Assembly (NCBI GenBank): GCA_947626475.1
Contig: CANQSK010000003.1
Coordinates: 1-54,408 of the forward strand
Reading direction: 5' to 3'
DNA: 54,408 nucleotides
From: an uncultured Lachnospiraceae bacterium
GTDB lineage: Bacteria > Bacillota > Clostridia > Lachnospirales > Lachnospiraceae
Below are positions 42,951 through 47,947 of this stretch, piece after piece. Each line of letters begins with the position of its first letter. Positions within the stretch are counted from its first letter, which is position 1. The position numbers were made by a program, and so were the translations under genes. A model generated the notes under the pieces. That model was not told the DNA's origin and ran no database searches. It saw nothing but the letters and a program-made list of their open reading frames with translations.

Positions 42951-44126
42951 TTATTTGGAGCTCCGATACGCTTCCAGCAGCCGGTTCACACGCTTGGTAG
43001 GACTCAGCAGCTCGCTTAGGGAAGCGTCGTGGTTCAGATTGTCAATGATCAGCGCGATATACTTGCTCATGTCTACATTGATGTAGTACGGCTTGGACAG
43101 AAGCGCAGGCGTCTGATAGATCAGGTTGGTGGTCAGAAGCCTGTCCAGAAGCCCCTGCTCATAGTACCGGTCAAACTGAGCCAGCCCGCCGGTAAACAGA
43201 CCAAAGGTGGCGCAGGCAAATACTTTTCTCGCTTTCCGCCTCTTCAGCTCCTTGATCACATCCAGCATGCTCTCGCCGGAAGAGATCATATCGTCGATGA
43301 TCAGCACATCCTTGCCTGCCACATCCGCTCCCAGAAACTCATGAGCTACAATGGGGTTGCGGCCGTTCACGATCCTGGTATAATCCCGGCGCTTATAGAA
43401 CATACCCATATCCAGGCCCAGCATATTGGCAAAATACACGGCACGGGTCATGCCGCCCTCATCCGGGCTGATGACCATCATATGGTCGCTGTCAATCTGC
43501 AAATCGGTTTCTACCTTCAGGAGATATTTGATAAACTGATAAATAGGCTGAACAGTCTCAAAGCCGATATCCGGAATGGCGTTCTGAACCCTGGGATCGT
43601 GGGCATCAAAGGTAATGATGTTCTCCACGCCCATCTCCGCCAGTTCCCGAAGCGCCAGAGCGCAGTCCAGGGACTCCCGCCCGGAACGCTTGTGCTGCCG
43701 CCCCTCATACAAAAACGGCATAATTACATTGATCCTGCGGGCCTTGCCTGCCGCTGCCGCGATCACCCGCTTCAGATCCTGATAATGGTCGTCGGGAGAC
43801 ATGTGATTGACCTGTCCGCTCAGCGAATAGGTAAGACTGTAATTCAGAACGTCCACCATAATATACAGATCGTCTCCCCGGATGGACGTCTCGATCACGC
43901 CCTTCGCTTCTCCGGAGCCGAACCGGGGCGTCCGGTTCTCTATAATGTACGTATCCCGCTGATACCCGGAAAACGCTATGGTCGACTTGTGTTCGCTCTC
44001 TCTCTCATCGCGCCAGGTCACAAGGTACTTGTCCACTTTCTCGCCCAGCGCCCGGATACTTCTCAGCGGAACCAGACCCAAGGGTCCCACCGGTATCGTC
44101 TCAATCGTTTTCTCTTCGTATATCAT
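42951..44126 (-). CDS. prs: Ribose-phosphate pyrophosphokinase (PRPP synthetase), long form
   Basis: A 391-residue PRPP synthetase-like protein, longer than the common 315-residue Prs. Motifs: PFLYEGRQHKRSGRESLDC (usual PY-RQDRK region), ITFDAHDPRVQNA (HD metal pocket), VISPDEGGMTRA, and the PRPP loop VLIIDDMISSGESML. It transfers pyrophosphate from ATP to ribose 5-phosphate. Some motif positions are altered, so a second, divergent Prs is possible. The ATG at 44126 follows GGAGG. Confidence 0.82.
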   Translation of the reverse strand: MIYEEKTIETIPVGPLGLVPLRSIRALGEKVDKYLVTWRDERESEHKSTIAFSGYQRDTYIIENRTPRFGSGEAKGVIETSIRGDDLYIMVDVLNYSLTYSLSGQVNHMSPDDHYQDLKRVIAAAAGKARRINVIMPFLYEGRQHKRSGRESLDCALALRELAEMGVENIITFDAHDPRVQNAIPDIGFETVQPIYQFIKYLLKVETDLQIDSDHMMVISPDEGGMTRAVYFANMLGLDMGMFYKRRDYTRIVNGRNPIVAHEFLGADVAGKDVLIIDDMISSGESMLDVIKELKRRKARKVFACATFGLFTGGLAQFDRYYEQGLLDRLLTTNLIYQTPALLSKPYYINVDMSKYIALIIDNLNHDASLSELLSPTKRVNRLLEAYRSSK

Positions 44127-44173
44127 GCTTTCCTCCAAGATGCAATCCCGCCTGCGACGTATTTATTATGCCA

Positions 44174-45178
44174 TTATCTGCTGATTTCGTCAAGCTGAAC
44201 CTGCCTTTTGGTCCGAATATCGTCCCCATACAGCGGAATGATCGTGTACCGGCCCACAATTCTTGAAGACACCCGGTCCGAATAGGCGTCCCTCAGCATG
44301 GACATGGACAGATTGGTGGAAATAACCGTGCTTTTTCCTCTGTTCAGCCTCTCGTTCACACAGTAGAAGAGCTGAGAGGATACGAAGGAATTGTTCAGCT
44401 CCGTGCCCAGGTCGTCGATGATCAGCAGGTCGCAGTCCAGGATACCGGAATACATATCCTGGGCGTCATCCTCCGGCTCATAGTGAAACTTGTTTTTGGA
44501 AAAAATATCAAACAGATCGCCGGAGGACAGATAAACCACCGACTGATACCGGTCAATCAGCGCCTTGGCGATGCAGTGGGTAAGAAACGTCTTCCCCACT
44601 CCGGTGCTTCCGGTAAAGATCAGGTTGCCGCCCTTCTGCTCAAAGTTTTCCACAAAATCCAGGCACCATCCCCGCACCTGTCTCATATACTGGGCCGCCG
44701 TCATCTCAATCCCCGGTATTATCTTCCGGTCATCATACACTCTGTAAGTAAACGTGTCGAAATTCTCCCGCTCCAGCACAGCCTCAATGTTGGACTGGGC
44801 ATAGAGAAGCTTCATCTGCTCCCGGCGGAAACACCGGCATCTCTTCCGCTCCACATAACCGGTATCCCTGCACTCCGGACAATGGTACCGCATCTCCATA
44901 TAATCCGCCGGGTAGCCGGCCCCGGCCATCAGCTCCGCTTTCTGCTGTCTCAGCTGCTCTGTGCGTCTTCTTGACGCCTCGGCCGCCTTCTCATCACCGT
45001 CCAGAAGCAGTCTGGCGAGAGTTACCGCCTGGCTGCCCAGCTCCTCCTCAATGGCCTTCACCTGAGGAAGCTTCTCATACACCTCGCGGCGCCTGATGTC
45101 CTGCTCATACCGGTCCTGATACTGCCGCTCGTTATAGATTCTCATGATCGCCTGATACTGAGAATTGCTAAGTGACAT
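44174..45178 (-). CDS. dnaI: DnaI/DnaC-like helicase loader ATPase
   Basis: A 334-residue replication protein. The N-terminal half carries a zinc motif HCPECRDTGYV...CRC (about residues 99-117); the C-terminal AAA+ domain has Walker A GSTGVGKT, Walker B LLIIDDLGTE and sensor motif STNLS. It loads the replicative helicase on DNA at the primosome. The ATG follows AAAGGAG, 10 bases after the dnaD stop, so the pair is an operon. A DnaA-box array precedes the operon. Confidence 0.85.
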   Translation of the reverse strand: MSLSNSQYQAIMRIYNERQYQDRYEQDIRRREVYEKLPQVKAIEEELGSQAVTLARLLLDGDEKAAEASRRRTEQLRQQKAELMAGAGYPADYMEMRYHCPECRDTGYVERKRCRCFRREQMKLLYAQSNIEAVLERENFDTFTYRVYDDRKIIPGIEMTAAQYMRQVRGWCLDFVENFEQKGGNLIFTGSTGVGKTFLTHCIAKALIDRYQSVVYLSSGDLFDIFSKNKFHYEPEDDAQDMYSGILDCDLLIIDDLGTELNNSFVSSQLFYCVNERLNRGKSTVISTNLSMSMLRDAYSDRVSSRIVGRYTIIPLYGDDIRTKRQVQLDEISR

Positions 45179-45188
45179 GTGCTCTCCT

Positions 45189-46292
45189 TTACTGCTCGCC
45201 CAGACGCGCCTTCAGTCTTTCCATGACTATCGCGTCATAATTGGTATCCCTCTGCTCAAAATTGTGAAACCGGTTCCTGCTGCCAGCCGCGGCCGCCGTC
45301 TGTCCCGCCGCCTTCGCCTGGGGCCTCCGGCTCTCTCTCGCCTGATCCAGCTTCCTTACATCCGCCATAACGCGGACTCCCGCTTTCTTCCACTCTTCCA
45401 GGATCCGGTCCGCGTAAGCAAAGCTGGGCTTCTGTGTCGCCTTAAGGGTGCGGCCGCAGGCCTCCGTCACCAGCTCCCTGGCAAAGCCCCATTCCTGGAA
45501 CCACTTCCGGATCAGCTCCATCTCCGAATCGCCGGGCCGTCGGTCGCTCAGGCCGAAAGCCTTCATAACCGCGAAGGCCTCGCCGGAAAATGACGCCGTA
45601 TGCTGCCGGGCCGCCTCCACCGTGCGGATTCCCTTCTCATGCCAGTTCAGCGCCACTGTCTCCAGATAACGGATGCTGTAATGGCCTCCCTGGACGCAGT
45701 ACTCCACCAGATACTCCAGCAGCTCCGCCGGAAGCTTCAGTCCGTCGTACAGATACGCGAACACCTCGCACTCCCTGGGCGTAAAAACCTTGTTCATATA
45801 TTTCTGTGCTATGTACAGAAGCTGGGAAAAATCTTCGTCATCCGCCAGACGCTTCACCTGCTCCGGCGTATACAGGGTCCTCTGGGTCGGTATCCTGGTA
45901 TCCGCCACCGCCGACCGGACGTCGGCTGCGCCTGCCCCGTCTGCCGCTGCGGCCTCCGCCGTCTGCCGGTCTTCGCTCTCAGGCAGCGGCGCTGCCTCTT
46001 CCCCCGCCTCTTCTTTCTTCTCCCCGGCCTCCATGGCCGCTCCGTCCCCTGTCTCCTTCTCATCCCGGCTCCGCACAAGCACCCCGAGACGCTCCCAGTA
46101 AGTCATGGCCCTGTGGATATCGGATTCCGTGTGATTCAGGGCGTCCGCCAGCTCCACCTCCGTCACCGGTCTGTCCTGATGGCGGAGCAGATACAGGTAG
46201 ACTTTTACATATTCTCCGTTGGCCTCCGGCATATACCGGTCAATAAATTCATCCGAAACAAGCGTCGCTCTGACATTCAGGCTGTTTTTCAT
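45189..46292 (-). CDS. dnaD: DnaD domain replication initiation protein
   Basis: A 367-residue protein with a winged-helix N-terminal domain (TEVELADALNHTESDIHRAMTYW), a low-complexity acidic linker, two DnaD-type helical domains (about residues 160-220 and 235-310), and a basic C terminus. DnaD remodels DNA at the origin and recruits the helicase loader. The start at 46292 uses GGGGAG 10 bases upstream; a GTG at 46301 is in frame. It is immediately followed by the dnaI-like gene, the expected partner. Confidence 0.83.
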   Translation of the reverse strand: MKNSLNVRATLVSDEFIDRYMPEANGEYVKVYLYLLRHQDRPVTEVELADALNHTESDIHRAMTYWERLGVLVRSRDEKETGDGAAMEAGEKKEEAGEEAAPLPESEDRQTAEAAAADGAGAADVRSAVADTRIPTQRTLYTPEQVKRLADDEDFSQLLYIAQKYMNKVFTPRECEVFAYLYDGLKLPAELLEYLVEYCVQGGHYSIRYLETVALNWHEKGIRTVEAARQHTASFSGEAFAVMKAFGLSDRRPGDSEMELIRKWFQEWGFARELVTEACGRTLKATQKPSFAYADRILEEWKKAGVRVMADVRKLDQARESRRPQAKAAGQTAAAAGSRNRFHNFEQRDTNYDAIVMERLKARLGEQ

Positions 46293-46327
46293 AATTCCCA
46301 CTCTCCCCGGTTTTTTGCTCTTTTCTT

Positions 46328-46336
46328 ACTATACCA
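46328..46336 (-). promoter_or_regulatory. Extended -10 promoter of dnaD-dnaI
   Basis: Minus strand TGG TATAGT (46336-46328), 36 bases before the dnaD ATG; the -35 area is poor. The nearest DnaA boxes lie about 50-75 bases upstream. Confidence 0.5.
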
Positions 46337-46383
46337 CATGTTTTTTCAAAAGAAAATAGGGCCTCTTTTCCCACCGGCACCCA

Positions 46384-46410
46384 TGTGGATAATGTGGATA
46401 GTGTGGACAA
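46384..46410 (-). promoter_or_regulatory. Array of three head-to-tail DnaA boxes
   Basis: Three contiguous 9-mers on the minus strand: TTATCCACA (46392-46384, perfect), CTATCCACA (46401-46393) and TTGTCCACA (46410-46402). They lie between murC and dnaD, upstream of the dnaD promoter. DnaA consensus is TTATNCACA. Confidence 0.7.
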
Positions 46411-46486
46411 CCCGTCCTCGCAATATCAAAAACGTCGAAATTTGCCGGACTGCCAACAAAATCAAAATGTTTATGTGAATCAAAAA

Positions 46487-46530
46487 ATCCACATAGTTTT
46501 CCCGGACATTTTGTTGAAAACTATGTGGAT
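46487..46530 (-). terminator. murC terminator with a 15-bp stem and T6 tail
   Basis: Perfect 15-bp inverted repeat (46516-46530 with 46487-46501), 14-base loop, and on the minus strand a run of six T after it. It follows the murC stop and ends the murC transcript. The upstream arm is formed in part by the second DnaA-box array. Confidence 0.8.
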
Positions 46531-46541
46531 AATGTGGATAA
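46524..46541 (-). promoter_or_regulatory. Two tandem perfect DnaA boxes
   Basis: TTATCCACA occurs twice back to back on the minus strand (46541-46533 and 46532-46524), right after the murC stop. A weaker site (TGATTCACA, 46482-46474) lies between the two arrays. Confidence 0.7.
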
Positions 46542-46542
46542 G

Positions 46543-47922
46543 TCAGATTCCAAGGATGTTTTCGCCCACTTTTACTATATCTCCGGCTCCCATAGTTATC
46601 AACAGGTCGCCGTTTATACAATTTTTTAAAATAAATTTTTCAATTTCATCGAAGGACCCCAGATAGTGGGCTTCTGTGCCCAGCGCCCGGATCCGCTCCG
46701 CAATGTCCCGGGAGCTGACGCCCAGATCGTCCGTCTCCCTGGCCGCGTAGATGTCGGCAAGGATGACCTCGTCCGCCGCGGACAGCGCCTCCGCGAACTG
46801 ATCCAGAAAGGCTTTGGTCCTGGAGTAGGTATGAGGCTGAAACACGCACCACAGCTTCCTGTGCGGATAATTTTTCGCCGCCGCCAGGGTCGCGGAAATC
46901 TCGCTGGGATGGTGGGCGTAATCGTCAATGATCGTCAGGCCGCAGACCTGGCCCTTTTTCTCGAACCGGCGGTTCGTCCCGGTAAACCTGGCAAGGCCGT
47001 CCTGAATGTCTTTCATATCAATATCCAGCGCCTGACAGAGAGCGATCGCCGCCAGAGCGTTGTACACATTGTGCTCTCCCGGCACGCCCAGCCTGATCCG
47101 GCCTTCCCGGCGGCCGTCCACCACCAGCTCAAAGCTGGCCCTGGCAAACTCATCATAGACGATGTCCGCCGCCTGATACTGCGCCTCCGCGCTTCTTCCG
47201 AATGTGACTGTCCGGCAGGGCAGCCCCTCCACGATCTCGCGCCAGTTGTCGATATCCGCGCCGATGACCACCAGGCCGCCCTCCGGCACCCTGGCCGCAA
47301 ACTTCCGGAAGGAACTGCGGATATCATTGATATCCCTGAAAAAGTCCAGATGGTCTTCTTCAATATTTAAAATAATCTCCATGTTAGGGAAGAAGGAAAG
47401 GAAACTATTGGTATACTCGCAGGCCTCCGTCACAAAAAGCCGGGAGCCGCCTACGCGGATATTTCCGCCGATGGAATTCAGAATGCCTCCCACAGAGATC
47501 GTGGGGTCCTGGTCCGCCGCCAGCAGAATCTCTGTCACCATGGAAGTCGTGGTAGTCTTGCCGTGAGTTCCGGCAATGCCCGCGGCATATTGATAATTCT
47601 TCATCAGCTGTCCCAGAAGCTCCGCCCTGGTCATCATCGGCAGCCCTTTCTCCGCAGCCGCCATAAATTCCGGATTGTCCGGATGAATGGCCGCCGTGTA
47701 AACCGCTACCTGGATCCCGTCTGTGATATTCTCCGCCCGCTGGCCGATAAATACCCTCGCGCCTTTCTCCTCCAGGTGCTTTGTCAGCTCAGACTCATGG
47801 GAATCCGAGCCGGAAACCGTAAATCCCTCGTCCAGAAGGATCTCCGCCAGTCCGCTCATGCTGATGCCGCCAATTCCTATAAAATGTACATGCCCCGGTT
47901 TACCAAAGTCAATCTGATACAT
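46543..47922 (-). CDS. murC: UDP-N-acetylmuramate-L-alanine ligase
   Basis: A 459-residue Mur ligase that adds L-Ala to UDP-MurNAc in peptidoglycan precursor synthesis. It has the N-terminal Rossmann motif HFIGIGGISMSGLAEIL, the ATP loop GTHGKTTTTS (118-127), and DDYAHHPSEI and FQPHTYSRTK in the C-terminal part. The ATG at 47922 is preceded by AAGGTGGGAG. It ends in its own terminator, so murC is transcriptionally isolated from dnaD. Confidence 0.95.
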   Translation of the reverse strand: MYQIDFGKPGHVHFIGIGGISMSGLAEILLDEGFTVSGSDSHESELTKHLEEKGARVFIGQRAENITDGIQVAVYTAAIHPDNPEFMAAAEKGLPMMTRAELLGQLMKNYQYAAGIAGTHGKTTTTSMVTEILLAADQDPTISVGGILNSIGGNIRVGGSRLFVTEACEYTNSFLSFFPNMEIILNIEEDHLDFFRDINDIRSSFRKFAARVPEGGLVVIGADIDNWREIVEGLPCRTVTFGRSAEAQYQAADIVYDEFARASFELVVDGRREGRIRLGVPGEHNVYNALAAIALCQALDIDMKDIQDGLARFTGTNRRFEKKGQVCGLTIIDDYAHHPSEISATLAAAKNYPHRKLWCVFQPHTYSRTKAFLDQFAEALSAADEVILADIYAARETDDLGVSSRDIAERIRALGTEAHYLGSFDEIEKFILKNCINGDLLITMGAGDIVKVGENILGI

Positions 47923-47947
47923 AGCTCCCACCTTATATACTCATAGT

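Follow-up and report, generated by a model that had tools for sequence, protein, structure and literature searches.

A candidate DnaA-binding control element between murC and dnaD, conserved in Lachnospiraceae

Genes and boxes at the murC–dnaD gap

The stretch of DNA analysed here (the window) is 54,408 nucleotides long and comes from an uncultured Lachnospiraceae bacterium (assembly GCA_947626475.1, contig CANQSK010000003.1). The gap between murC and a gene encoding a DnaD-domain protein carries five 9-mers of a motif that we take to be the DnaA-box consensus, all on the minus (coding) strand, and murC, dnaD, the genes for a loader-type ATPase and a PRPP synthetase, and the boxes share a common direction (Table 1). 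Positions and strand, read directly, agree with the initial annotation, in which five 9-mers, three of them perfect copies of TTATCCACA, were arranged 3 + 2 on one strand. The arrays had also been called back-to-back, which is correct for the boxes within each array, as these abut, but not for the arrays themselves, because 113 bp separate array 1 (an abutting pair, 46524–46541) from array 2 (an abutting triple, 46384–46410). The murC stop codon occupies 46543–46545, and array 1 begins one base later.

Genes for two helicase-loading proteins had been said to follow the boxes. A DnaD-domain gene and an AAA+ loader-type gene do lie downstream, but the name DnaI applies to the latter only loosely: its best NCBIfam model is PRK06835, and the DnaI model matched with an E value of 5e-11 but far under its cut-off. 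Alignment of relatives makes ATG at 46292 a more likely start codon of dnaD than GTG at 46301. Judging from the short gaps, the PRPP synthetase gene probably belongs to one operon with dnaD and the loader gene.

Table 1. Positions of genes, boxes and predicted signals around the murC–dnaD gap
Feature	Position	Strand	Basis and remarks
murC	46543..47931	-	TIGR01082, E 4.1e-146, above cut-off; ORF; gene upstream of arrays
DnaA box 1a, TTATCCACA (array 1)	46533..46541	-	Sequence; conserved in relatives
DnaA box 1b, TTATCCACA (array 1)	46524..46532	-	Sequence; its ATCCACA is the terminator-stem base
Degenerate third box, TTTTCAACA, +21 from box 1a	46512..46520	-	Sequence and relatives
Intrinsic-terminator-like hairpin of murC	46481..46530	-	Fold; 15-bp stem, arms 46516-46530 / 46487-46501, T run
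DnaA box 2a, TTGTCCACA (array 2)	46402..46410	-	Sequence and genus alignment
DnaA box 2b, CTATCCACA (array 2)	46393..46401	-	Sequence and genus alignment
DnaA box 2c, TTATCCACA (array 2)	46384..46392	-	Sequence and genus alignment
Likely extended -10 of dnaD, TG-G-TATAGT, poor -35	46328..46333	-	Conserved block, 24-member genus alignment
dnaD (DnaD-domain protein)	45189..46292	-	Pfam DnaB_2, TIGR01446; ORF; start from alignment
Helicase-loader-type AAA+ ATPase (dnaI of the initial annotation)	44174..45178	-	ORF; profile match
PRPP synthetase (prs-like)	42951..44138	-	ORF; profile match

Exact copies of TTATNCACA occur three times in the window, every one of them at the murC–dnaD gap, in line with the earlier remark that boxes were seen only there in the sequence read closely. 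Since 4 of 100 shuffles of the window reached three exact copies anywhere (mean, 0.79), the bare count is only mildly unusual, and it is the arrangement that stands out. In the whole genome (3.12 Mb), the tandem TTATNCACATTATNCACA with at most two mismatches was found 11 times, and three of these matches lie in the murC–dnaD gap; the reversed motif was found once. The genome-wide count of single boxes that had been proposed gave 91 copies of TTATNCACA against 38 for the reversed motif, and the same 9-mer is present upstream of this genome's dnaA. That gene lies on another contig (C20), with boxes upstream and dnaN (named by eye) after it, and the murC–dnaD arrays, which do not adjoin dnaA–dnaN, are therefore not the ordinary origin. 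The boxes upstream of dnaA (L011:3487-3605) run in both directions and are 11 to 60 bp apart, whereas those of the dnaD arrays are zero-spaced. An ORF that by eye resembles a pseudouridine synthase gene contains a further group, at L010:4001-4075 (contig C70:13000-13074), in which three exact boxes are accompanied by a near-box and two of the four abut.

Conservation, terminator and predicted promoter

The family sample comprised 124 of 145 Lachnospiraceae genomes with a dnaD match, 20 genomes less than 90% complete and G026 (74%) having been left out; 119 of the 124 are nearly all one per genus. Boxes were counted in the murC–dnaD gap plus the start of dnaD, a region of varying length. The murC gene precedes dnaD in 118 of the 124 genomes, and among these 118 at least three boxes were found in 103 (reversed-motif control, 3), an abutting pair in 91 and at least two perfect boxes in 80; the six genomes without any box all have short gaps. 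An array-2 pair was detected in 66 of the 118 and both pairs in 50, array 2 being degenerate or absent as a pair in many family genomes. Relatives in the same genus repeat the arrays upstream of dnaD; beyond Lachnospiraceae, among 21 genomes of the order's other families (L042 included), we read an abutting pair ahead of dnaD in 10. The tandem 18-mer with at most one mismatch is present, at any locus, in 125 of the 150 family genomes scanned, and control matches were few. The initial annotation had staked its reading on conservation in relatives with the same gene order, and the boxes are indeed kept across most of the family sample and part of the order.

The arrangement of the boxes is also shared among 119 family genomes. 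A start-to-start distance of exactly 9 bp dominates on the coding strand (175 cases), followed by 12 bp (37 cases), and 282 perfect boxes lie on the coding strand compared with 17 on the other. In 79 of the 119 genomes an array-1 pair starts between -3 and +7 nt relative to where the murC stop codon ends; the offset is 0–3 nt in 75 of those 79. The place of the degenerate third box, at +21, is occupied by a box with at most one mismatch in 22 of the 79.

As in intrinsic terminators, murC is followed by a hairpin that has a T run behind it and a stem showing compensatory changes; the 5′ arm of this hairpin overlaps array 1 in 58 of 61 cases. ATCCACA stands opposite TGTGGAT with a T tail in 54 of the 79 genomes having the array-1 pair; these seven base pairs were partly selected by the search itself, and the next three, which are free of that selection, hold in 52, 51 and 50 of the 54, with A-T, T-A, G-C and C-G all occurring. 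Four pairs higher up the stem hold in 41, 45, 37 and 37 of the 54. Because box 1b is the base of the murC terminator stem, one sequence has two roles, as a DNA site and as an RNA stem, and such a double use of a single DNA word is interesting in itself. A consensus scan of 46200–46700 found no terminator because of its loop limit; it gave one weak promoter match, inside murC, and did not pick up the extended -10 of dnaD.

The likely dnaD promoter emerged from an alignment of 24 genus members, from which the long-leader member L039 and three genomes of other genera were left out. Array 2 lies at about -89 to -63 of this predicted promoter (hand count), and its distance to the invariant CTATTTYCTTTT stretch, and then to the extended -10, is constant within 1 nt in all 24 members, so that the boxes hold a fixed place relative to the predicted promoter, as at promoters regulated by DnaA. 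The CTATTTYCTTTT stretch itself (46321–46365), upstream of the likely -10, is almost invariant in the 24 members, more so than a weak -35 requires, and another factor may bind it. An inverted repeat in the spacer of the genus alignment, TCTACA/TGTAGA, was attractive by eye but was rejected because its covariation, also judged by eye, was poor.

Spacing of the two arrays

The distance from array 1 to array 2 ranges from about 86 to 189 bp among genomes and changes stepwise, by about 11.1 bp at a time. A period of 11.1 bp fitted the first 50 genomes best (R=0.65, reached by 0 of 2000 jittered sets), and for 158 loci the best fit was 11.15 bp (R=0.66). The locus set was obtained by dropping 21 of 251 loci without a recognised murC and collapsing the remaining 230 to 213; 40 loci added later included 4 duplicates and 3 in which murC was not recognised. 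Since spacings are shared among related genomes, a MurC tree was built and non-overlapping pairs were taken from it. With the best-scoring anchor and a period (T) of 11.0 bp, these independent pairs gave z=4.7 for changes of at least 6 bp (n=46), 2.5 for at least 14 bp (n=25) and 3.7 for at least 20 bp (n=22). Two other anchors gave 4.0 and 3.9, 1.9 and 3.1, and 2.8 and 3.9 at the same three thresholds, the phasing being weakest with one anchor at changes of at least 14 bp (z=1.9).

The 9-bp register of the arrays was considered as a source of the periodicity. At T=9 the best-scoring anchor gave z=3.1 for changes of at least 6 bp, -0.2 for at least 14 bp and -0.8 for at least 20 bp, which indicates that register contributes to the smallest changes but not to the larger ones. 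That register alone explains the phasing was rejected, because changes of at least 14 bp gave z=-0.2 at T=9 against 2.5 at T=11.0. A period of 10.5 bp fitted more poorly in most tests, but with the "last pair" anchor, the one that gave z=1.9 above, and changes of at least 6 bp it equalled 11.0 bp (z=3.98 versus 4.00). Control distances from either array to dnaD codons, taken as tree-based pairs at T=11.0, gave no clear signal (z=-1.8 to 1.0); in 73 related loci taken without the tree, the same distances showed some periodicity (R of about 0.35).

Period and phase were then fixed from the first 50 genomes and applied to 37 new genera (including G433, G151 and G188). Spacings for this hold-out came from two sets of exact patterns, which match 58 and 37 of 397 genomes at any locus; matches judged to lie at hpf or elsewhere were removed by sequence and place, and ten new matches of the second set were taken as dnaD-type, nine of which (all but G278) were seen to follow murC. 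The hold-out gave z=5.1, or 3.8 without the commonest class (162–168 bp), and 3 of the 37 spacings were out of phase: 180 bp (G367), 146 bp (G200) and 157 bp (G224). Distinct spacing values of the exact set differed from a clustered null with p=0.003. The window's own spacing depends on the array-2 pair used: one pair gives 131 bp, in phase, and the better-scoring pair gives 140 bp, out of phase. On the whole, the distance between the arrays varies by whole helical turns, as in phased looping, less strongly so with one anchor, and a helical repeat of about 11 bp per turn has been described for DNA loops in bacteria in vivo (PMC8501960, in excerpt).

Upstream of hpf, the interval between this gene and secA holds a second cluster of abutting boxes (L012:2824-2894, contig C15:31823-31893; L174:5023-5137), which in several relatives consists of two abutting pairs 97 bp apart. 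Of the 30 closest secA loci, 10 showed it; both genes, hpf and secA, were named by eye. Among 15 cases that we assigned to hpf, five of which (G068, G160, G095, G197 and G082) were located there, the pair spacing was 97 bp in 11 and 75–76 bp in 4. These values deviate from the dnaD phase by about 1.5 bp and, used as another test of phasing, agree with it only roughly. The terminator on box 1b, the helical phasing and this second cluster go beyond the initial annotation.

Interpretation and comparison with known systems

On balance, we favour the view that the murC–dnaD gap is a conserved DnaA-binding control element of the dnaD–loader–prs operon, the two arrays of which are bridged by DnaA; DnaA as the bound protein, the loop, and the effect on transcription with its sign are the parts that we infer. 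The sites bound by DnaA would be array 1, which lies at the murC stop codon and forms part of the murC terminator, and array 2, immediately ahead of the dnaD promoter. Contact between DnaA on the two arrays across the intervening DNA would produce a small loop or some other face-matched complex, and the distance between the arrays would change by whole helical turns because DnaA on both must meet on a matching face. Such a complex would govern transcription from the dnaD promoter, whose -10 is extended and whose -35 is poor, and the supply of helicase loader would follow the amount or state of DnaA. The position of the arrays upstream of the promoter slightly favours activation over repression. 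DnaA was earlier suggested either to control loader supply or to be titrated; throughout the genus array 2 holds a constant position ahead of the likely dnaD promoter, which favours control over a pure titration sink, and titration may occur alongside operon control.

A more elaborate version, which we regard as possible but doubtful, is a homeostat of loader supply, in which DnaA would loop the dnaD promoter region through the two face-matched arrays, and DnaD, once made, would be drawn to the DnaA complex and loosen it. B. subtilis DnaD is reportedly recruited to DnaA-bound regions. It is also reported to inhibit cooperative DnaA binding (PMC5295017, in excerpt), and these two properties make feedback on the gene for DnaD itself conceivable. 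If this were true, feedback would tie the supply of helicase loader and PRPP to DnaA, with one box common to murC termination and DnaA binding, and a family-wide replication switch would exist that has no counterpart among the top 20 B. subtilis DnaA regions, as far as these are given in the excerpted table (PMC4447404). The excerpts of open-licence literature searched contained no report of DnaA boxes at dnaD in Lachnospiraceae, and how C. difficile regulates DnaA activity is stated to be unknown (PMC7561715, in excerpt). Initiation control is little known in clostridial relatives, and a presumed DnaA element at the helicase-loader operon would be a defined control point in a major gut family.

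Among the other explanations, titration is the strongest, although we consider it unlikely: the arrays would hold DnaA or set its state, thereby timing initiation at oriC in the way proposed for B. subtilis clusters outside oriC, and their place before dnaD would be secondary. Many boxes at one conserved place suit this idea, as does the early initiation of B. subtilis lacking six DnaA-box clusters (PMC5295017, in excerpt). Of 12 relatives, 9 carry dnaA and dnaD on a single contig (that of G151 being taken as circular), at a distance of 46–667 kb or 1.5–22% of genome length; the closeness in 8 of the 9, within 14%, also suits titration, and the 22% of the ninth speaks against it. Titration would, moreover, require no constant position at a promoter and no helical phasing.

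It is quite improbable that a protein other than DnaA binds the 9-mers. Exact boxes upstream of dnaA do stand at distances of 11 and 18 bp, unlike the zero-spaced 9-bp tandem, but the motif is the DnaA-box consensus and also precedes this genome's own dnaA, and we know of no other regulator with this 9-mer motif. Slightly less probable still is that the arrays serve murC termination alone, their likeness to DnaA boxes being a by-product of the terminator stem. Box 1b does form the base of a covarying stem, but this reading was dropped because box 1a and array 2 fall outside that stem; both are conserved, and array 2 is phased to array 1. A second or alternative replication origin, to which DnaA-box arrays beside replication genes might point, was dropped as the main reading and is barely credible, as the genome has dnaA and dnaN on contig C20, where boxes precede dnaA, and dnaA and dnaD are 46–667 kb apart in the nine relatives.

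The preferred reading, a DnaA-bound control element, has partial parallels in several known systems. Like the B. subtilis clusters outside oriC, which consist of several close, mostly intergenic DnaA boxes, the murC–dnaD gap lies apart from the dnaA region, and its several boxes fall within some 300 bp. Some of those clusters control promoters, sda being activated and ywlC, vpr and others repressed (PMC4447404, in excerpt), and neither dnaD nor dnaB–dnaI is among the top 20 of 269 B. subtilis DnaA regions in Table 1 of that paper, as excerpted. Boxes abutting at 9 bp, a terminator that shares one box, and two phased arrays distinguish the element described here. In the bipartite oriC of B. subtilis and C. 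difficile, two clusters are likewise thought to be joined by DnaA (PMC5295017 and PMC7561715, in excerpt), and B. subtilis oriC forms looped structures with DnaA (PMC5295017, in excerpt), but the clusters flank dnaA there, whereas dnaA is elsewhere here. E. coli datA and DARS are also DnaA-box loci away from oriC (PMC5295017, in excerpt); they act by altering the nucleotide state of DnaA, IHF or Fis taking part at datA and DARS2. The phased repression loops of the lac type share the dependence on site distance in whole turns of about 11 bp in vivo (PMC8501960, in excerpt). Those loops are engineered or belong to single operons and are formed by a repressor, whereas the evidence here is evolutionary and concerns a presumed initiator on multi-site arrays. 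The 11-bp stepping provides natural comparative evidence for a loop or a face-matched DnaA complex away from oriC.
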